The notes below the pieces were generated by a model. It made no database searches. It was given only the letters and a program-made list of their open reading frames with translations, and was not told the origin of the DNA. Positions 8,843 to 27,445 of a stretch of DNA of 27,955 nucleotides are shown piece by piece. The DNA is from a virus. The stretch spans positions 1-27,955 of IMG/VR virus record IMGVR_UViG_3300020471_000671. The stretch is one strand, 5' to 3'. Position 1 is the stretch's first letter, and each line of letters starts with the position of its first letter. Both the position numbers and the translations under genes were made by a program.

Positions 8843-9553
8843 ATGCCATTACCTACATTAAGTGTACCTAAGTACAAACTGAAACTGCCTTCTGATGGCA
8901 GAACTGTCAATTTTAGACCTTTTCTTGTAAAAGAAGAGAAATTGCTACTTTTAGCAACTGAGACAGGTAGTCAAGAAGATATTGTTACTGCAATTAAAAA
9001 TATCATTACTGAATGTACTGATATTCATGATATTGATGATCTCCCAACTTTTGATATTGAATATGTCTTTCTTCAAATCCGTACCAAATCTGTTGGTGAG
9101 GCTGTTGAGGTTAATGTGACATGCCCTGATGATGGAGTAACGGAAGTACCTGTTAAAATACCTTTGAATGAAATTAAAGTCAAAAAAGACAAGAAGCATA
9201 AGAAGGATATTAAATTGGGTGACGATATTATTTTAACTATGAGTTATCCTAGTTTGGATACATTTGTTCAAATGAACTTCCAAGATGAAGAACCTACTGT
9301 AGATTCTGTTTTTGAAATGGCAGCAGGATGCGTAAAGCAAATTGCTGATGCTGAACAAGTATATGATGCGTTAGATACTCCTAAAGAAGAGATGATGGAA
9401 TTCTTTGAGCAGTTGAGTAGTAAGCAGTTTCAAGAAGTTCAAAATTTCTTTGATACTATGCCTAAACTATCTCATACTGTTAAGGTTACTAATCCTAAAA
9501 CTAAAGTTGTAAGTGACATAGTTCTAGATGGATTAGCATCTTTTTTCGGATAG
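8843..9553 (+). CDS. 26: Baseplate hub protein gp26 (tail-assembly-chaperone-like)
   Basis: A 236-residue protein (T4 gp26 is 208). It starts MPLPTLSVPKYKLKLPSDGRTV and contains the F-R-P-F-L-V-K-E-E-K segment typical of the T4 gp26/baseplate family, then an acidic helical C-terminal half (DALDTPKEEMMEFFEQL). In T4 it is needed to assemble the hub. The last codons are TCT TTT TTC GGA TAG, and the slippery heptamer T TTT TTC (9541-9547) lies one codon before the stop and leads into the gp51 frame. This layout, right before tape-measure-like genes, matches the lambda G/GT chaperone pair. A late promoter box lies 22 bases upstream. Confidence 0.85.
   Translation: MPLPTLSVPKYKLKLPSDGRTVNFRPFLVKEEKLLLLATETGSQEDIVTAIKNIITECTDIHDIDDLPTFDIEYVFLQIRTKSVGEAVEVNVTCPDDGVTEVPVKIPLNEIKVKKDKKHKKDIKLGDDIILTMSYPSLDTFVQMNFQDEEPTVDSVFEMAAGCVKQIADAEQVYDALDTPKEEMMEFFEQLSSKQFQEVQNFFDTMPKLSHTVKVTNPKTKVVSDIVLDGLASFFG
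9541..9547 (+). promoter_or_regulatory. -1 ribosomal frameshift heptamer T TTT TTC
   Basis: In the gp26 frame the codons are TCT TTT TTC GGA TAG, so the heptamer fits X XXY YYZ with X=Y=T and Z=C. Both tRNAs can re-pair on TTT TTT in the -1 frame, after which gp51 continues from CGG. The zero-frame stop follows after one codon (GGA). Confidence 0.65.
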
Positions 9554-9744
9554 CTCTACTCCATCAAAATTTACAAACCTTCTATGAAGTTAATTTTGCA
9601 CTTATGCACCATCATAAGTGGCCATGTGATTATATTGATAACTTGATTCCCTTTGAAAAAGAGATCTATATGAATCTCTTAATGAATTATCTTAAAGAAG
9701 AAAACAGGCGAATGGAGGAGAGCCAGAGGCAACAACAAAAGTAG
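9541..9744 (+). CDS. 51: gp51 (baseplate hub assembly), read as -1 frameshift extension of gp26
   Basis: The -1 frame relative to gp26 is open from 9517 (after a TGA at 9514-9516) to TAG at 9742-9744. The encoded stretch FRIALLHQNLQTFYEVNFAL followed by MHHHKWP...IPFEKEIYMNLL matches my recollection of cyanophage gp51. The first ATG in this frame is 9604, and no ATG, GTG or TTG occurs earlier, so an independent start would lose the first ~20 conserved-looking residues. A -1 slip at 9541-9547 would give a 300-residue fusion: 235 gp26 residues plus 65 gp51 residues. The end is charged (KEENRRMEESQRQQQK). T4 gp51 is a separate gene. The alternative is a rare ATT/ATA start. The coordinates mark the gp51 segment from the heptamer. 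Confidence 0.7.
   Translation, partial: FFRIALLHQNLQTFYEVNFALMHHHKWPCDYIDNLIPFEKEIYMNLLMNYLKEENRRMEESQRQQQK
9599..9620 (+). promoter_or_regulatory. Perfect stem-loop inside gp51
   Basis: CACTTATG (9599-9606) pairs with CATAAGTG (9613-9620) around CACCAT. The stem buries ATG 9604, the only normal start codon near the front of gp51. It starts 51 bases past the slippery heptamer, which is too far for a standard stimulator; it might instead block internal initiation. Confidence 0.45.
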
Positions 9745-9756
9745 CATTAATCAATA

Positions 9757-12700
9757 GTGGCAAATAAATTTACACATAAGTTTGTAAATGCTGGAGTAAA
9801 GGGTAAACTTACACCAGCACTTTTTGCTGCAAGGAAATCTATTACTGCTACTAATAGGATAGGTAATACAATAGCTAGTATTGGTAATATCGCATGGGAT
9901 ATAAGGCAAATTGCTGTTAAATCAGCAGCAAATAAAGTACTAGCAGAACAAGCACAAAGAAGGAGAGAGCAAAGAGAAAGAGACCAAGAAGCTGAAGAAG
10001 CAGCAGAACTGGATAAATCGTTACAATCGAAAACGGCACAGAAACCAACCTCTAAGCAGAAAGGTCTTGCAGGAAAGCACTTTGGTTGGTTAAATGGGTT
10101 CCTTAGACCTATAGTAGAATTTTTTGGTTGGTTAATTAAGGTTACTCTCATTAAGAAGATTCTTAATTGGCTGCAAGATCCTGAGAATAAAACAGCGTTA
10201 AAAACATTTTTAGAGAGATTTACCTTTGTTGTAAAGAAATTATATAGTTTTGTTAGTTGGATTGTAAAGGATAATATTCTTGATGGACTCGCAGATCTGT
10301 TTGGAGCTGGTGGTGAAGACGGTAAGGATTCATTCTGGGATAGAGTAAGAGGACTAGGTAAGCTCATGTTTGGGCTTACCATGATGCGATGGTTGCTCAA
10401 TCCATTTGCAGCAGTAACTGATATTGTAGGGTTACTTGACTTTATAATGAATTGGCGATTGCCAAAGTTGAGGATAAAAGGATTAAAGAGGCTTTGGGGT
10501 AGACGGATAAAGAAAGGGTTTAATGCACTTCGAGAGAGTAAACGTCTGAAGAAGATGGTTCAAACCATCAAGAAATTCGGCAGACCCATAATGAAGCCGA
10601 TTAAGTTCATTGGGAAGCAGTTTCAGAATTTTAGGAAGGGATTTAAGGGTGTAACAAAGACAGCAGATATTGCTAAGACGACTAATACGTTATTTCCTCA
10701 TATAGCAACTGGTGCTAAGAAGGGTGGGAAGGCATTTGAAGCTGGAAAACAAGTTAGGCAAACTCTTAAAAATTTCTTTGGACCTGGAAGTAAGTTTGGT
10801 AATTTATTAAACAAATTACCTTTTAAAAATTTCCAAGTTCCTAAACCAATGAAGCCAAACCTTTTTGGTAAGGCATTGAGTAACAGGTGGAAAAAGGCTA
10901 CTGATGGGATTAAATCTGGTATCAATACTATTGGTAAGTGGGGTAGTAATGGATGGGATTATCTAAGTAAACTTCCTAAAAAGCAATTTGATAAAGTTTC
11001 TAAGAGATTCCTTAAACCTATATGGGATAGGGTAAAACCTGTTAAGAAACATGCTGAGAATTTAATCACACCGTTTAATAAAGCGGTTAAAAATTCTCCT
11101 GTTGGTAAGCTTGTTAGAGGTGCAGGAGCAAAGAAAGTAGGGGCTTCAAGGTTAAAGGATATACCTCTTTTAGGATCTATTGTCAATTTTTACTTTGCTG
11201 TTGATTCGTTTAAGAGTGGTGATACTGTTGGTGGTGTATTAGAATCTCTTGCTGGTGCAGCAGAATTAGCTGGTTATATGATACCAGGTGCTCAACCATT
11301 ATTGATTGCTGGTGGTGTACTAGATCTATACTTACTTTCTAGGATTCTTCCTGGTGGTATAGGTGAATCTATAATGGAATGGGAGAGAACTAAAGCGATC
11401 CCAGGAATGGCTAATACGTTTGAAAGTGCTCTTTCAGGTAGTAAAAATTTAATACAAGGTGCTAAAACACAGATAAGTAAAGCATTTGATGGTATTAATA
11501 AATGGATTGGTGCTGATAAAGAAGCACAAAAAACAAAGCATATAACTGAAGGTCAGGGTGATGGCGAAGGAATGACCAAAGAGGAATCTGATTTTAAATC
11601 AGGTGATGGTAAAGGTGATGGTAAAAAGGAGAAAAAAGGTCTTTGGGGTTGGCTCTTTGGAAAGAAAGAGAAGAAGAAAACATATTCATATACCGCAGCA
11701 CATGGTACTTCTGAATATGGAGACCACGATGATTCTGATTATGCAATAGAAAGTGAAGCACATGAATGGGGACCAGATGGTCAACCTAGTGCAAGTAAAC
11801 AAACTAAGAAACCTTGGTGGAAGTTATGGGAGAAAGGTGGTTATCCAGTTAAAGGTGCAGGTGGATCATTCTTTCTTGGTGGTCTAGCTAAAGGTATTGG
11901 AAAGGCATTTGGTGGGATAGGTAAAGCAATTGGTGGTATAGTTAGTGGTATTAGTGGTGCTATTGGTGGCATCATTAATACAGTAAAGGATGTTTTAGGT
12001 GGTCCATTAGGACAAATCTTGATGATGGCATTACCAGTAATGTTCCCTGCTGTTGCTTGGTTGGGACCAGTATTGAAAGGTATTAATGCTGTTATGGCAT
12101 TGGCAAGTGGTGACCCATTAGGGGCCATAATGTCTCTGTCTGGTGCATTTAGCAGTATTAATACTGTTAACGCCATAGCTATGCCTAAATGGATGCAATC
12201 CATGAGGTTCAGTAAGTTTGGTAACTTTATGGCAAACTTGAATGGACCAGGTGGATTCTTGAGCACTAAGATGGGTAAGATTGGTGTAGGGATACTTTCT
12301 GGTAACTATGGTGCTGCATTTAATGCTGCTATTGATGGTACATCTTTAGGTGCTAGTTTGGCTAACCTTGGTAATAAAGTTGATGAATTAGGACTCGGAG
12401 GTATCCTTGGAGCCATACCAGGCTTAGGACCAACCCTACAGAATATGGGTCTTGGTGATGTTGTTGGAATTTCAAGTCTATTAACAGGTGATTTCTCTGC
12501 TGCTGGTTTCATTACTGGTATGGCAGAAAAGCATGGTTATGGTGGACTTGTTAAGGCAGCTCTTGGTATGGTCGGAGGTAACTTTGAACAGGGTATGATA
12601 GATCTCGCTTCTGAAATGGGTGTAAGTCCTGAAATGTTTGGTGTTATCGATACATTACAAATGTTAAGGGAAGGTGGTGAATCAGAGAAGCAAAAAATTA

Positions 12701-12852
12701 TGCAAGAGATTGGAAGTATATCTGTTGTTAGTTTCCCTGTTGTTGTTCAAAAACTTCTATCAATTCCAACACCAGTTGGAGTTGAGACTGGAGGTGGAGG
12801 TGGCTCCAGTGGATCTGGTGGACTTCTAAGTCGATTGGGATTTGGTAAATAA
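9757..12852 (+). CDS. Tape-measure-like tail/hub protein A (1,031 aa)
   Basis: It starts at GTG 9757 (MANKFTHKFVNAG), 12 bases after gp51. An N-terminal coiled-coil (about residues 60-90, QRRREQRERDQEAEEAAEL) is followed by a hydrophobic/aromatic region with I-L-N-W-L-Q-D-P-E-N-K-T near residue 134, shared with the next gene. A long basic Lys/Gly/Pro-rich part comes next, then a Gly-rich hydrophobic region (about 700-800) such as tape measure proteins use to enter the membrane, and a Gly/Ser end. Position right after gp26/gp51 is that of a tape measure protein; T4 gp29 (590 aa) holds that role but I see no specific match. It probably sets tail length or forms the hub core. GTG start and lack of a clear ribosome site suggest coupling to gp51. 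Confidence 0.7.
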   Translation: MANKFTHKFVNAGVKGKLTPALFAARKSITATNRIGNTIASIGNIAWDIRQIAVKSAANKVLAEQAQRRREQRERDQEAEEAAELDKSLQSKTAQKPTSKQKGLAGKHFGWLNGFLRPIVEFFGWLIKVTLIKKILNWLQDPENKTALKTFLERFTFVVKKLYSFVSWIVKDNILDGLADLFGAGGEDGKDSFWDRVRGLGKLMFGLTMMRWLLNPFAAVTDIVGLLDFIMNWRLPKLRIKGLKRLWGRRIKKGFNALRESKRLKKMVQTIKKFGRPIMKPIKFIGKQFQNFRKGFKGVTKTADIAKTTNTLFPHIATGAKKGGKAFEAGKQVRQTLKNFFGPGSKFGNLLNKLPFKNFQVPKPMKPNLFGKALSNRWKKATDGIKSGINTIGKWGSNGWDYLSKLPKKQFDKVSKRFLKPIWDRVKPVKKHAENLITPFNKAVKNSPVGKLVRGAGAKKVGASRLKDIPLLGSIVNFYFAVDSFKSGDTVGGVLESLAGAAELAGYMIPGAQPLLIAGGVLDLYLLSRILPGGIGESIMEWERTKAIPGMANTFESALSGSKNLIQGAKTQISKAFDGINKWIGADKEAQKTKHITEGQGDGEGMTKEESDFKSGDGKGDGKKEKKGLWGWLFGKKEKKKTYSYTAAHGTSEYGDHDDSDYAIESEAHEWGPDGQPSASKQTKKPWWKLWEKGGYPVKGAGGSFFLGGLAKGIGKAFGGIGKAIGGIVSGISGAIGGIINTVKDVLGGPLGQILMMALPVMFPAVAWLGPVLKGINAVMALASGDPLGAIMSLSGAFSSINTVNAIAMPKWMQSMRFSKFGNFMANLNGPGGFLSTKMGKIGVGILSGNYGAAFNAAIDGTSLGASLANLGNKVDELGLGGILGAIPGLGPTLQNMGLGDVVGISSLLTGDFSAAGFITGMAEKHGYGGLVKAALGMVGGNFEQGMIDLASEMGVSPEMFGVIDTLQMLREGGESEKQKIMQEIGSISVVSFPVVVQKLLSIPTPVGVETGGGGGSSGSGGLLSRLGFGK

Positions 12853-12855
12853 ATA
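12848..12855 (+). promoter_or_regulatory. Late promoter box AATAAATA before protein B
   Basis: AATAAATA overlaps the stop of protein A and ends 22 bases before the ATG at 12878. A GACGAGG ribosome site lies in between. Confidence 0.55.
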
Positions 12856-12877
12856 GAATGACGAGGTATATTCTCTA

Positions 12878-15800
12878 ATGGCAAGTATCCAGAAGTCATC
12901 AAAAATTAATATGTACAAGTTCGTCAATGTTGACGATCAAGGTGCATCTGCGGATCCTGTTGCCAAAAGTATTAATGTACAGACTAGTGCCATTAATAAT
13001 ATGGGTAAAACCATTAATGGTATTGCTGCAACTGCTGTAACTTTAAAAAATCTTGCTCTTCATAGATTAAATGAAGAAGAGAAAGCAGCACGAGAAAAGT
13101 TTAAACCCCAATATACAAAGCAAAGACAAAATCCATTTAAATCTTTAATGCTTAATATTAAGGCATATAAAGTTAAGGGATTCTTAGAGAGTATGCTTTC
13201 ATTCTTAGGAAGTTTACTTAAAATATTCATTATTAGACCAATATTAAATTGGTTGTCGAATCCAGAGAATAAAACAAAATTAGTTGCGATATTAGAAGGT
13301 ACTTGGAAGGTATTAACTTGGATTACTGATTTTCTTGGTAGTCAGTTTGTTCATGCTATAAATGAGCTGCATGATGTTCTGAGTGGTGAAACTAGTGTTT
13401 GGAAAAAGGTAACATCATTTACTAAACTTTGGATTAAATTTGCTGCTGGATTTTTAGCCATCAAGTTCTTAAGAAATCCAGTTAAACTCTTAAGATCTGT
13501 AGCAAATGTTGGCAGGATGCTTGCCATCAAAACAAAATTAGCGAAGGCACAATTAACTAAGAGGAAACAATTCTTAACTGGTGGTAAATGGGCTAGAGGT
13601 AAATGGTTACTTGGTGGTGCTGTTGGTGCAACTGTATTATGGCAATTTGCTAATTGGGCGTTAGGTAAGAAGGAAAACGAAGAACAAGGTGATGATAGTA
13701 CTCCCAATGCTTCGGGAGGTGGTGATAGAAATAAAGATAGGGCATTCTCTATACAGGAGTATGGTGAAGATCTTACTACTGCTATGTACGATTCATTAGG
13801 ATTAAAAAATCCTAATGAGAAGGATGATAAGAAGAAGAAGAATATGTGGAACCCGAAAAATTGGTTCGGGGGTAAAAAGGAGAAAGAATCTAAGAAGGAT
13901 GGTGAAAGTCCTAATCCATTAGGCGTTCTTGCTGGAATGTATACGGCAAATAAACAGTTTGAACATCTGCTTAAGACATTTAAGGAAGAGAGTTCAGAAT
14001 TTGGCAGTAAGATGAATGATGCTGATGGTAGTGGTAAAGCAGCATTAATGCTTAATCTTGCTGCTACACTTGAAGGTGCATTGGGTAGTAAAAACCAGAT
14101 GTTCCAGCAACTTCAGCTGCAGACTCAGAATCTTGTTGAAAGTGCTGGAAAAGTTTCTAGTGGTGATAAGACTAGTATTGGTGAATTTTTAAAATGGGCA
14201 GGACATGATGTTCAATCTAGAGAAGAAGGTGGTCCAATTGGTTCTTATGAAAATGGTGGAAAGTGGTTAAATGGACCTAATAGTGGATACCCTGCACATC
14301 ATGACGGGAATCCATTAATTGCTCACGGGTTAGAAGGATTGTTTACTAAGCCTGGTAGTAAGGATGGATTTATAGTACCATTTGATAATGCTGCAACTAG
14401 AAAAGATCCATCGTTAACTATGGTGAGGTTAGCACAAGCTAAGAAACTTGGATTTAAAAATGGACCACCAGGATTTGAGAAAGGTGGTTTTAATCTATTT
14501 AATCCGATGTCTTGGTTTGGGGATAAGAAAGCACAGACATTTATGAGAGGTGCTCATGGAGATAGAAATGTACAAATTCAAGGAAGTGGATTAGCAGCTC
14601 AAGTTGGTCGTAACCGTCAAAATTTAAATGCTATTATGCAAGAGATGGGATATGCTTCTCCTTATGGTAATTACGCTCTTGGTGGTCCACTTGGAGTGCA
14701 AAATCTTAAGGATAATAAGACATATAGAATATCTCAGGATAAAGGATACTTTGAAAAATCTAAAGTTAAATCTGGTGGAGGAGGTAATTGGTTCACCAAT
14801 ATGTTTAAAGGTTGGGGTGGTGATAAAGGAAGTGGTGGTAACTGGGGATTAGGTGCAAACTTTGGGCAACAATATCAAGAACCTGGTTCAGGTGGATTAG
14901 GATTAGTACAAAGATTGGTTGCTTCTCATCGTGGAGATGAACTAACTTCAGCATTACTAGCAAGAACAATCTTTAATAGAAAGGCTGCTATTGATAAGAC
15001 TGGTAATTCCCAAATGTTTAAAGCGAAGAGTGGAAGTTTCCATGATATATTACATGCACCAGGTCAGTATCCTAATGTAGAAAGTGGTAAGATAAAGGGT
15101 ACATTCTCTAATTCTGAGTTGAATGCTGCTGGTAAAGCTATGAAGTTAGCAAAAGAAGCACATAAACTTAAAGAACGTTTAACTGAAAGTGGACTAGATC
15201 CAGCTAAAACACAGCAATTAATGACTGCTACCATATTTAAACCTGGTTCTGGATTAAATAAAGGTGGATTAATGGGGTTACTTACTGGTGGTGGTGGAGT
15301 TAGATTTGGTAAATATACATTCCAGAATAAACCATCCAATGCTATGAATGCTTTGATGGGTGGAATGAATCCATTGATGATGAAAGGTATGATGACTATG
15401 ATTAGTAATCTAGTCGGAGGAAAGAAAGATGGTGGATTTGGTAGAGATCTTATTATGACACTTGCTAGTGGAATTATAGGTGGTGGATTTGGAAAAGAGG
15501 GAGGTAAAGGTGGTGGAATGATGGATGCTTTATTTGGAATGTTTGGTATGCCTACTAAGAGAGGTGGTCAAAAGGATAAGAAGCAATCTATGTCTGGTGG
15601 TTTAGGTCAAGTACTACAGAGTGTATTTGGTGGTAAAGGTGGAAAGGATAAGAAAGAAGAAAGGATGGAGTTTAAGAAGAGAGAGAATGAAAGACATAGA
15701 CAGATAATGAAGTATGAAGCATCACAGCAGAAACGTAATATCATGTCTAGATTGCATGACCAAGCTAGTCAAAATGCTAGAGAGATTACATCTGCTGTTA

Positions 15801-15952
15801 ATGCATCCAATAAATCTGCTGCTAGTCAGGCAAGAATGGGTGCAGAAGCTGTTGCTAGATTATCTCAAGCAGCACAACAACAAAAAGGAAATACCTTTAT
15901 GAGTGTCTTCAAGTCAATAGCAACCCAACTAAGTTCATCTAAGAAAAAATAG
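12878..15952 (+). CDS. Tape-measure-like protein B (1,024 aa) with SleB-like domain
   Basis: This is a paralog of the preceding protein: both have KFVN near the start, then a hydrophobic block with I-L-N-W-L-x-(D/N)-P-E-N-K-T (residues 122-133 here) and a later S-x-W-x-x-V...K-L block. Residues ~672-750 resemble SleB/CwlJ cell-wall hydrolases: L-V-A-S-H-R-G-D-E (680-688), A-R-T-I-F-N-R, then I-L-H-A-P-G-Q-Y-P-N-V-x-S-G-K-I (P728-G729-Q730). The EARGE glutamate taken as catalytic in SleB is Ser683 here. A Gly/Met-rich part and a C-terminal coiled-coil (about 915-1010, KKEERMEFKKRENERHRQ) follow. Peptidoglycan binding or cutting during injection is inferred; since gp5 here shows no lysozyme, this could be the virion's wall-acting part. 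Confidence 0.7.
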   Translation: MASIQKSSKINMYKFVNVDDQGASADPVAKSINVQTSAINNMGKTINGIAATAVTLKNLALHRLNEEEKAAREKFKPQYTKQRQNPFKSLMLNIKAYKVKGFLESMLSFLGSLLKIFIIRPILNWLSNPENKTKLVAILEGTWKVLTWITDFLGSQFVHAINELHDVLSGETSVWKKVTSFTKLWIKFAAGFLAIKFLRNPVKLLRSVANVGRMLAIKTKLAKAQLTKRKQFLTGGKWARGKWLLGGAVGATVLWQFANWALGKKENEEQGDDSTPNASGGGDRNKDRAFSIQEYGEDLTTAMYDSLGLKNPNEKDDKKKKNMWNPKNWFGGKKEKESKKDGESPNPLGVLAGMYTANKQFEHLLKTFKEESSEFGSKMNDADGSGKAALMLNLAATLEGALGSKNQMFQQLQLQTQNLVESAGKVSSGDKTSIGEFLKWAGHDVQSREEGGPIGSYENGGKWLNGPNSGYPAHHDGNPLIAHGLEGLFTKPGSKDGFIVPFDNAATRKDPSLTMVRLAQAKKLGFKNGPPGFEKGGFNLFNPMSWFGDKKAQTFMRGAHGDRNVQIQGSGLAAQVGRNRQNLNAIMQEMGYASPYGNYALGGPLGVQNLKDNKTYRISQDKGYFEKSKVKSGGGGNWFTNMFKGWGGDKGSGGNWGLGANFGQQYQEPGSGGLGLVQRLVASHRGDELTSALLARTIFNRKAAIDKTGNSQMFKAKSGSFHDILHAPGQYPNVESGKIKGTFSNSELNAAGKAMKLAKEAHKLKERLTESGLDPAKTQQLMTATIFKPGSGLNKGGLMGLLTGGGGVRFGKYTFQNKPSNAMNALMGGMNPLMMKGMMTMISNLVGGKKDGGFGRDLIMTLASGIIGGGFGKEGGKGGGMMDALFGMFGMPTKRGGQKDKKQSMSGGLGQVLQSVFGGKGGKDKKEERMEFKKRENERHRQIMKYEASQQKRNIMSRLHDQASQNAREITSAVNASNKSAASQARMGAEAVARLSQAAQQQKGNTFMSVFKSIATQLSSSKKK

Positions 15953-25996: not shown

Positions 25997-27445
25997 ATGG
26001 CAGACCAAGGACTCTTAGCACAATCAAAACCAGGAGCAAATACCAACGTGCTTTTGTACGGTGCTGACACTGATAAATCAGCAAGTGCTGTATTGACTAT
26101 CGCAAATGATGGAACAGGTTCAGCATATAAAGTTGGTATAAAGGATTATGACCAAAAATTAACTGTTGGTTCAGGTGCTCTTCTTCACGAAGGTGATGTA
26201 ATTACTGGATATAAAGTAACAGTTAATAACGCTATGTCTGATGCTACTGGTTTAGTGGCAGGAAATGAGATAACAAGTGATGACAGTGAAAAGAGTTTTT
26301 TCTTTGAATCTTTTATAGTACCTGATTATACAGAATATTTTGTTAAAGATGTTTTACTTAGAAACGTTACTACTGAATCAGTAACTGGTACGTTTACTGT
26401 TGGTGAAACAATAACCAAAGGTACTGGTAGTGATACAACAACAGCAGTTGTTTACAATGTAACTGGTACTATACTTAGTCTTGGACCTTCAACTATTAAT
26501 GGATCTGGTGCAGAATTCGCTGATGGTGATTCTATAACTGCTTCTGGTGGTGCTACAGCAACTGTATCTACTGGTGGTATTGCAACAGGTGTTCAAACTT
26601 GGGTTTTCTCTGTTACAACTGCTGGCGGTACTTACAATTCTTACGAAACAGATAATTTACAAATATTTGGGGATAGGATTTATAGATTTAATGTTGGTGA
26701 TTCCTCTATGAGTGGTAGAGATTTTAAAATATCAACTGATATTAATGGTGAGTGGGGATTAGATGGTATTGCTGGTAATGCTGATGATGGTACAGAATAT
26801 ACCACTGGTAAGACTTCGAGTGGTGCTGAAGGTGATGGTGCTAATGGTTATATTCAATATGACTTTAGTCAAAATACAACATTAACTGGATTACTTTACT
26901 TCTATGATGGAGGTACTGGTACTGCTGGTAATAATGTTTACGGTGGTAGTACACGTAATATGACAATATCAACTACTTTTACATACCTTGATATGTTTGT
27001 TTATAATGTAAAAGGAACATGGACTAATGGTGCTGATACATTTACTTCAGCAGGTACAACATTTACTGTAACTGCACAAGATGTTCAACCATACGGATAT
27101 GTTCGTAGTTATAGTGGAACTGACCTTAAAGTAATTAAGGGTATTAATTCTCCTGATTTTGCTGGTAGTGATACCTTTAGAGATGCACCTAGACAATTAG
27201 CTGCAGATAGATCTACTGTTACTGTAAGTTCTGTTGATGTTGCAACTACTGCTCTTGAAGATGCTAGTTATCTTGTTAATGGTGTTACTAATGGTAACAA
27301 TGAAGTTGATAGAATAACTTCTATTGTTGTTGGACCAGGTGAGAGATTAATTGTTAATAGTACTACTGCTAATAACTCATTTAATCTTATTGGATTTGAA
27401 GATGCTTCAACAGCATTATCAACTAGAGTATTTGGCGGTGCATAA
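25997..27445 (+). CDS. Virion structural protein, beta-rich
   Basis: A 482-residue protein, MADQGLLAQSKPGANTNVLLYGADT..., six bases after the preceding stop. It has a repeated F-T-V-G-E-T-I-T...G-S-D-T-T-T-A-V-V style beta motif (about residues 133-195), Gly/Thr/Ser/Asp-rich content and few Lys/Cys. These features fit a fibre or baseplate-periphery protein of cyanophages. The end region (VDRITSIVVGPGERLIVNS) resembles a beta-sandwich tip. It is probably co-assembled with its neighbours. No specific T4 match is seen. Confidence 0.7.
   Translation: MADQGLLAQSKPGANTNVLLYGADTDKSASAVLTIANDGTGSAYKVGIKDYDQKLTVGSGALLHEGDVITGYKVTVNNAMSDATGLVAGNEITSDDSEKSFFFESFIVPDYTEYFVKDVLLRNVTTESVTGTFTVGETITKGTGSDTTTAVVYNVTGTILSLGPSTINGSGAEFADGDSITASGGATATVSTGGIATGVQTWVFSVTTAGGTYNSYETDNLQIFGDRIYRFNVGDSSMSGRDFKISTDINGEWGLDGIAGNADDGTEYTTGKTSSGAEGDGANGYIQYDFSQNTTLTGLLYFYDGGTGTAGNNVYGGSTRNMTISTTFTYLDMFVYNVKGTWTNGADTFTSAGTTFTVTAQDVQPYGYVRSYSGTDLKVIKGINSPDFAGSDTFRDAPRQLAADRSTVTVSSVDVATTALEDASYLVNGVTNGNNEVDRITSIVVGPGERLIVNSTTANNSFNLIGFEDASTALSTRVFGGA

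Follow-up and report, generated by a model that had tools for sequence, protein, structure and literature searches.

A predicted -1 frameshift would join gp26 and gp51 of a marine T4-like phage into the long form of a tail assembly chaperone

Introduction

Passages of PMC5009743 describe lambda gpG and gpGT as chaperones of the tape measure protein, and G-T frameshifting as widely conserved except in T4. For T4 itself, a portion of PMC3004832 lists gp26 and gp51 as hub assembly chaperones, describes gp51 as required for assembly but missing from the finished particle, and refers to genetic work that places gp26 in the hub. According to an excerpt of PMC3037559, the gp51 proteins of cyanophages and marine vibriophages lack approximately the first 200 residues. 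The window analyzed here (a stretch of viral DNA of 27,955 bases, taken at its full length) contains the gp26 gene of a T4-like phage, with gp51-like residues continuing in the -1 frame across the gp26 stop codon. This arrangement raises the question of whether gp51 is a gene of its own or the end of a longer protein produced by a change of frame, as the original prediction held when it proposed that gp26 and gp26-gp51 are the G and GT forms of a tail assembly chaperone (TAC).

Results

A slippery heptamer stands one codon ahead of the gp26 stop

The junction contains the following features.

8843..9553, plus strand: gp26, the putative TAC-N or G-like short form; 236 aa plus stop; PF12322 and phrog_150; predicted TAC-like fold over residues ~1-90
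9541..9547, plus strand: slippery heptamer T TTT TTC, in phase and one sense codon ahead of the 0-frame stop
9551..9553, plus strand: TAG stop of the unshifted reading, read from the sequence
9547..9744, plus strand: -1 frame extension, the putative TAC-C or T-like part; 65 aa plus stop; phrog_634 at E 3.1e-26; aligns with the C-terminus of T4-type gp51, with protein-like substitutions
9604..9606, plus strand: earliest ATG in the -1 frame, encoding an internal Met within the conserved domain

The gp26 gene ends TCT TTT TTC GGA TAG, and position 9541 is the third position of a gp26 codon, which gives the heptamer the phase X XXY YYZ. Reading in the -1 frame is uninterrupted between 9517 and 9741 and closes with a stop at 9742-9744; within this open stretch of the window, no ATG, GTG or TTG occurs ahead of 9604. 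A tandem slip on the heptamer would join 235 residues of gp26 to 65 residues of the -1 frame, giving a product of 300 aa. The position and phase of the heptamer, the -1 frame open to 9744 without an earlier start codon, and the length of the gp26-gp51 fusion had all been named beforehand, and each was confirmed.

Across the 23 plus-strand ORFs of the window, X XXY YYZ motifs occupied 29 of 7487 in-frame positions and T TTT TTC occupied two. The gp26 heptamer marks the exact point where the conserved -1-frame domain begins. The other copy, at 26296-26302 inside ORF 25997-27445, is probably there by chance.

The heptamer is conserved and its codons are constrained

Relatives were collected by similarity from viral contigs and phage records, and a plus-strand gp26 match together with a readable stop codon defined 187 loci, window included. 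Three more matched loci were dropped with no stop within the fetched DNA, and 11 T4-type loci (L001, L191-L200) lie outside the set, since none of them gave a plus-strand match at the chosen cut-off. An in-phase T TTT TTC or T TTT TTT was present close to the stop in 186 of the 187 loci, which were themselves found via similarity to heptamer-bearing genes; the heptamer is thus not a chance occurrence, and a check of its phase in relatives, as the original prediction had proposed, came out in its favor. TTTTTTC stood one codon ahead of the stop in 135 loci and TTTTTTT in 15, and in the other 36 the heptamer lay further upstream, at most 31 nt from the stop. The sole miss was Vibrio phage D504. 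Carriers included Vibrio phage ValKK3, Stenotrophomonas phage DLP6, Sinorhizobium phage phiM7, Pseudomonas phage pf16, Aeromonas phage AS-zj and Cronobacter phage LPCS28. The window being a single virus record, an error in sequencing or assembly or a disrupted gene might be suspected, but the recurrence of the arrangement in 186 of 187 loci leaves this explanation a negligible probability.

For codon analysis, the 187 loci were reduced to 126 genes sharing less than 90% nucleotide identity; the sequences compared are related, and P-values that ignore this relatedness overstate the case. The last Phe codon was TTC in 113 of the 126 genes, compared with 523 of 1702 for all Phe codons of the set, and its synonymous bias ranked first of 234 columns. 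The codon ahead of the two Phe codons ended in T in 125/126 genes while spanning at least five amino acids (constraint rank 4th), and the first Phe codon of the heptamer ranked 7th of the 234 columns.

A separate bias was noted at gp26 residue 224, the third base of which lies 27 nt 5' of the heptamer. Among relatives, Ser at this residue was encoded by AGT in 70 of 81 cases, a bias that ranks second among the codons of the gene. AGT followed by GA creates a TGA in the -1 frame; the bias may only reflect descent.

The -1 extension behaves as coding sequence

Searching phage records with tblastn revealed 554 records matching the -1 reading. Among the best 60 of these, 58 alignments began with the first residue, which lies at the heptamer, and the remaining two began at residue 4 or 5. 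Alignment A1 comprised 77 of 116 listed proteins and alignment A2 comprised 60 of 112. Over 60 aligned sequences of the -1 domain, residues F1, F2, F19, P37 and E39 were invariant and L11, Y14 and N18 nearly so. Pairwise differences among 17 close loci (window included), counted over 57 nt ending just 5' of the window's first ATG, were, by -1 codon position, 0.218 (first), 0.152 (second) and 0.496 (third), the pattern expected if this frame is translated. Of 123 usable non-redundant loci, 121 had a -1 stop no more than 60 nt upstream. Pfam gave no match for the window's -1 domain.

These data bear directly on the alternative that gp51 is a separate short gene, started at an internal ATG (9604 in the window) through re-initiation or coupling after the gp26 stop. 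Several records give gp51 its own CDS, including those of S-RIM8, phiM7, DLP6 and P-HM1, and the first -1-frame ATG of relatives lies most often at +5, +53, +32, +50 or +14 from the stop. However, the start position is not conserved, the annotated gp51 starts differ between records, and no CDS is annotated over the extension in ACG-2014d, S-CAM4 and S-MbCM6. The expectation that a gp51 start codon would be missing throughout held in part: 49 of the 123 loci had none of ATG, GTG and TTG among the first 19 codons of the extension (61 had no ATG), whereas the remaining 74 had a start codon there, so some independent translation is possible. Since ATG 9604 is an internal Met of the conserved domain, a start at this position would cost conserved residues. 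F1, F2 and F19, as well as L11, Y14 and N18, are held as described above across the 60 sequences, even though 49 loci have no start codon in this stretch. A separate gene also does not predict the codon constraint on the heptamer, and leaves it unexplained. We therefore consider a separate gp51 gene very unlikely.

In Aeromonas phage AS-zj (L087:4705-6735), approximately 2 kb following gp26 is unannotated; this stretch contains the -1 extension and probably also the next long gene.

Putative stimulatory signals flank the heptamer in relatives

Of 125 loci, 64 had an SD-like GAGG that started 14 nt ahead of the heptamer and 30 had a GGAG that started 15 nt ahead. The duplex energy with the anti-SD was -7.02 compared with -5.51 in synonymous controls, and was lower in 92/125 loci; nine control windows taken from the gene differed from their controls in this direction by no more than ~0.2. 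The 60 nt 3' of the heptamer were predicted to fold more stably than synonymous controls (-10.67 versus -7.00; n = 121), while the following 60 nt gave no folding signal (-7.25 versus -6.85). A dinucleotide-shuffle test of 60 of the 121 loci agreed in direction, more weakly, with a mean z of -1.27 just after the heptamer compared with -0.42, -0.05 and -0.44 in gp26 and -0.60, 0.17 and -0.68 further downstream. Counting hairpins by stem geometry separated the site poorly from control stretches (41/121 versus 19, 18 and 32 of 121).

The T run could also be read as a site of slippage by RNA polymerase, as opposed to the ribosome, and runs of T6 or longer are in principle slippery for the polymerase. 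This run is short, however, its last Phe codon retains the C in 113/126 genes, and the SD-like 5' and structured 3' signals fit ribosomal frameshifting; polymerase slippage is extremely unlikely. The window itself has no GAGG, GGAG or AGGA in the 30 nt 5' of its heptamer, and its downstream RNA structure does not exceed controls (z +1.4; dinucleotide-shuffle z -0.40). With both stimulators missing, its own frameshift efficiency may be low.

A variant junction replaces the heptamer in some relatives

Ten junctions were fetched after the main set. Three carried the heptamer (Bakedbeans, P-HM1 and S-MbCM6) and seven did not (K446, K369, 1.244.A, SFP10, RC-2014, 0507-KN2-1 and phiA8-29), and all seven non-carriers were Ackermannviridae or D504-type phages. 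The junction read ATT TTC in SFP10, RC-2014 and 0507-KN2-1, CTT TTC in D504, K446, K369 and phiA8-29, and CTT TTT in 1.244.A; near the 3' end of the gp26-like gene, [AC]TT TT[CT] occupied the place of the heptamer in L207, L208, L209, L210, L211, L089, L201 and L202. Ackermannviridae-type junctions kept the -1 extension and had no consistent start codon. The Vibrio D504 group has no heptamer and a TAATG overlap, and Vibrio phage Bakedbeans, the sister of D504 in the tree described below, retains T TTT TTC. The 51 records whose proteins match that of D504 at ≥95% were counted as one case.

Re-initiation at the TAATG of the D504 group was weighed as a third strategy and given less weight: SFP10, 0507-KN2-1 and phiA8-29 keep the extension without that ATG, so a variant slip site seems likelier. 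On sequence grounds, [AC]TT TT[CT] is a possible candidate for such a site in Ackermannviridae-type phages. The ATT TTC, CTT TTC and CTT TTT junctions resemble the phage T7 gene 10 site. The Ackermannviridae-type junction also resembles the GTTTTT motif described in part of PMC12846349.

T4 gp51 corresponds to the whole fusion

Comparison of gp26 from the window with PF12322 (T4_baseplate) gave E 2.1e-74 and 250.3 bits, against a curated cut-off of 24.5, over profile positions 2-218 of 219; comparison with phrog_150 gave E 3.7e-85. Both T4 gp26 (208 aa, 215.6 bits) and T4 gp51 (249 aa, 177.5 bits) matched PF12322 over positions 1-219 of 219, and phrog_634, the family hit by the window's -1 domain, matched residues 147-246 of T4 gp51. 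In hhalign comparisons gp26 ended at residue 202 of T4-type gp51 (E 1.6e-9) and the -1 domain began at residue 200 (E 1.8e-7), so the two tile T4 gp51. By these profile comparisons, the homologue of the complete 300-aa fusion is T4 gp51 and that of the unshifted product is T4 gp26, and the two T4 proteins are paralogues within the TAC family. Since T4 gp51 matches the whole fusion, the 'gp51' of the window is a C-terminal domain and not a whole second protein. The proposed link between hub proteins 26/51 and TACs therefore holds, but it comes from paralogy; the part of the proposal that implied a joining of two unrelated genes did not stand.

That T4 has two separate genes was borne out: genes 26 and 51 are divergent in T4, and likewise in Aeromonas phage 31, while in Pseudotevenvirus PF-CE2 gene 51 is followed in tandem by gene 26. 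A tree was built from 40 of 42 rows, with two T4 duplicates omitted and the gp51 rows trimmed of their last 46 residues; its frameshift group (n = 24) comprised 23 sequences with the heptamer plus D504 without it. One branch (support 100/98) placed the 16 two-gene sequences on one side and the 24 one-gene sequences opposite in this unrooted tree. The gp51 rows formed one group (100/100). The gp26 rows did not do so in the best tree, in which gp26 of phage 31 and PF-CE2 were long branches. A single duplication is the simplest reading of the two-gene lineage, not a proof of it.

In alignment A3, covering 6 of 10 T4-type loci, residues C85 and C88 (CxxC) and C185 of T4-type gp51 were invariant across the six sequences. 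The gp26 of the window has a single Cys (TCPDD) at the place matching the T4-type gp51 cysteines, and a metal site may be lineage-specific.

The short form has a predicted TAC-like fold

An AlphaFold2 model of gp26 built from 77 sequences had a mean pLDDT of 85.3. In a second-look structural alignment its best PDB match was the HK97 tail assembly chaperone gp14 (2ob9) at Z 7.6, a score in the range below 8 that can be noise according to the alignment tool's own note; the match took in 83 of the 107 gp14 residues at an rmsd of 4.5 and covered only gp26 residues ~1-90. A comparison with tail assembly chaperones had been put forward as a check on gp26, and it was one of these that ranked first. 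Next were 3fgx (Z 7.3) and 3klu (Z 7.2), followed by matches at 4.8 and below; we take 3fgx and 3klu to be TAC-like prophage proteins. Foldseek alone gave no PDB match to the gp26 model at E <0.001, with the HK97 chaperone at rank 12 (E 1.3), and no tail protein emerged when PDB sequences were searched using the gp26 profile (best E 0.059). A library of viral structures contained 58 predicted proteins matching the gp26 model at E 0.001 or better, many of them named baseplate hub subunit. For the T4-type gp51 model, the HK97 chaperone was found at Z 3.7 (rank 4). The modeling predicts a TAC-like fold for the short form, and gp26 has an additional region beyond these first ~90 residues.

A gene with weak tape measure similarity follows the junction

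Downstream of the extension lies one long gene, followed by a second.

9757..12852, plus strand: next gene, 1031 aa, weak tape-measure similarity; phrog_790 at E 1.9e-114 (named endolysin) and phrog_1272, tape measure, at E 8.4e-5

Pfam gave no match for this 1031-aa gene. The claim that the frameshift gene lies directly before two tape-measure-like genes was supported in part: the first has the weak phrog_1272 match, and for the second (1024 aa) the profile search gave no tape measure match. Long downstream genes of relatives had weak tape measure matches in ValKK3 (1.6e-6), phiM7 (1.8e-5), DLP6 (2.4e-4) and pf16 (0.0085) and none in LPCS28; a small gene intervenes ahead of the long gene in phiM7 and DLP6. 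The frameshift gene probably sits ahead of the tape measure gene.

The consecutive 1031- and 1024-aa genes (9757-15952 in the window) share PHROG families 790, 1200, 2588, 13530 and 17500, which suggests related proteins in tandem.

Discussion

It is very probable, from the comparative sequence data, that one gene encodes two tail assembly chaperones of the G/GT type through a -1 frameshift. The majority of ribosomes would terminate at 9551-9553 and produce gp26, a 236-aa TAC-N like lambda gpG. A minority, with tRNA-Phe in the P and A sites on T TTT TTC, would slip back one base to TTT TTT and so bypass the stop; with 65 more residues, their product would be a 300-aa TAC-NC like gpGT. If lambda is a guide, the tape measure protein would be bound by the short and the long form alike, with the additional domain recruiting tail tube subunits before the chaperones leave. 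We infer the occurrence of slippage, its rate and the binding roles. The assignment of gp26 as G and gp26-gp51 as GT is strongly supported for two predicted forms, with the gp51 part as the C-terminal domain. T4 and its close relatives would make the same two products from paralogous genes, 26 (short) and 51 (long).

Vladimirov and colleagues reportedly found in 2022 that several T4-like groups retain the frameshift and that T4 relies on genes 26 and 51. Judged by its title and by citing papers, Vladimirov, Gautam and Davidson (2022, Virology 566:9-15) made the same TAC identification in T4-like phages, so the frameshifted TAC described here is of a kind already known. Passages in papers citing that work state that in some T4-like phages a short gene and a longer, fused one take the place of frameshifting, and a portion of PMC12846349 attributes to it poly-T slippery sites in T4-like TAC-N genes. 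A frameshift switch of this kind in T4-like phages has thus been published previously.

The arrangement has parallels and differences elsewhere. As predicted for the window, lambda gpG/gpGT has a -1 shift near the 3' end of the chaperone gene and a short and a long product. The lambda slippery site is G GGA AAG, in contrast to T TTT TTC here, and gp26 of the window, unlike the lambda protein, has a region beyond its TAC-like first 90 residues. T4 obtains the two products from divergent genes without a shift, whereas the window would use one gene. As described in part of PMC12846349, the TAC gene of Pseudomonas phage Adele shifts by -1 at a poly-T GTTTTT, as predicted for the window's heptamer, and its extension is routinely annotated as a separate gene, which resembles the annotation of gp51; Adele belongs to a different family, the Vandenendeviridae, and the likeness is one of arrangement.

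We tentatively suggest, as a reading somewhat short of probable, that the T4-like site is a three-part cassette comprising an SD-like element ~14 nt 5', T TTT TTC and 3' RNA structure. Lineages would tune it by losing the stimulators, as in the window, or by changing the site, as with [AC]TT TT[CT] in the sampled Ackermannviridae-type phages, which keep the -1 extension without a consistent start codon; the T-even lineage would use two genes, the long one equivalent to the whole fusion.

The predicted frameshift accounts for the fragment-like appearance of gp51 in cyanophages and marine vibriophages, lacking approximately its first 200 residues in the account excerpted from PMC3037559. In several of the records examined, the extension is entered as a small gene of its own or is omitted. 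The exception to the G-T frameshift rule that passages of PMC5009743 make for T4 is not valid for T4-like phages at large.
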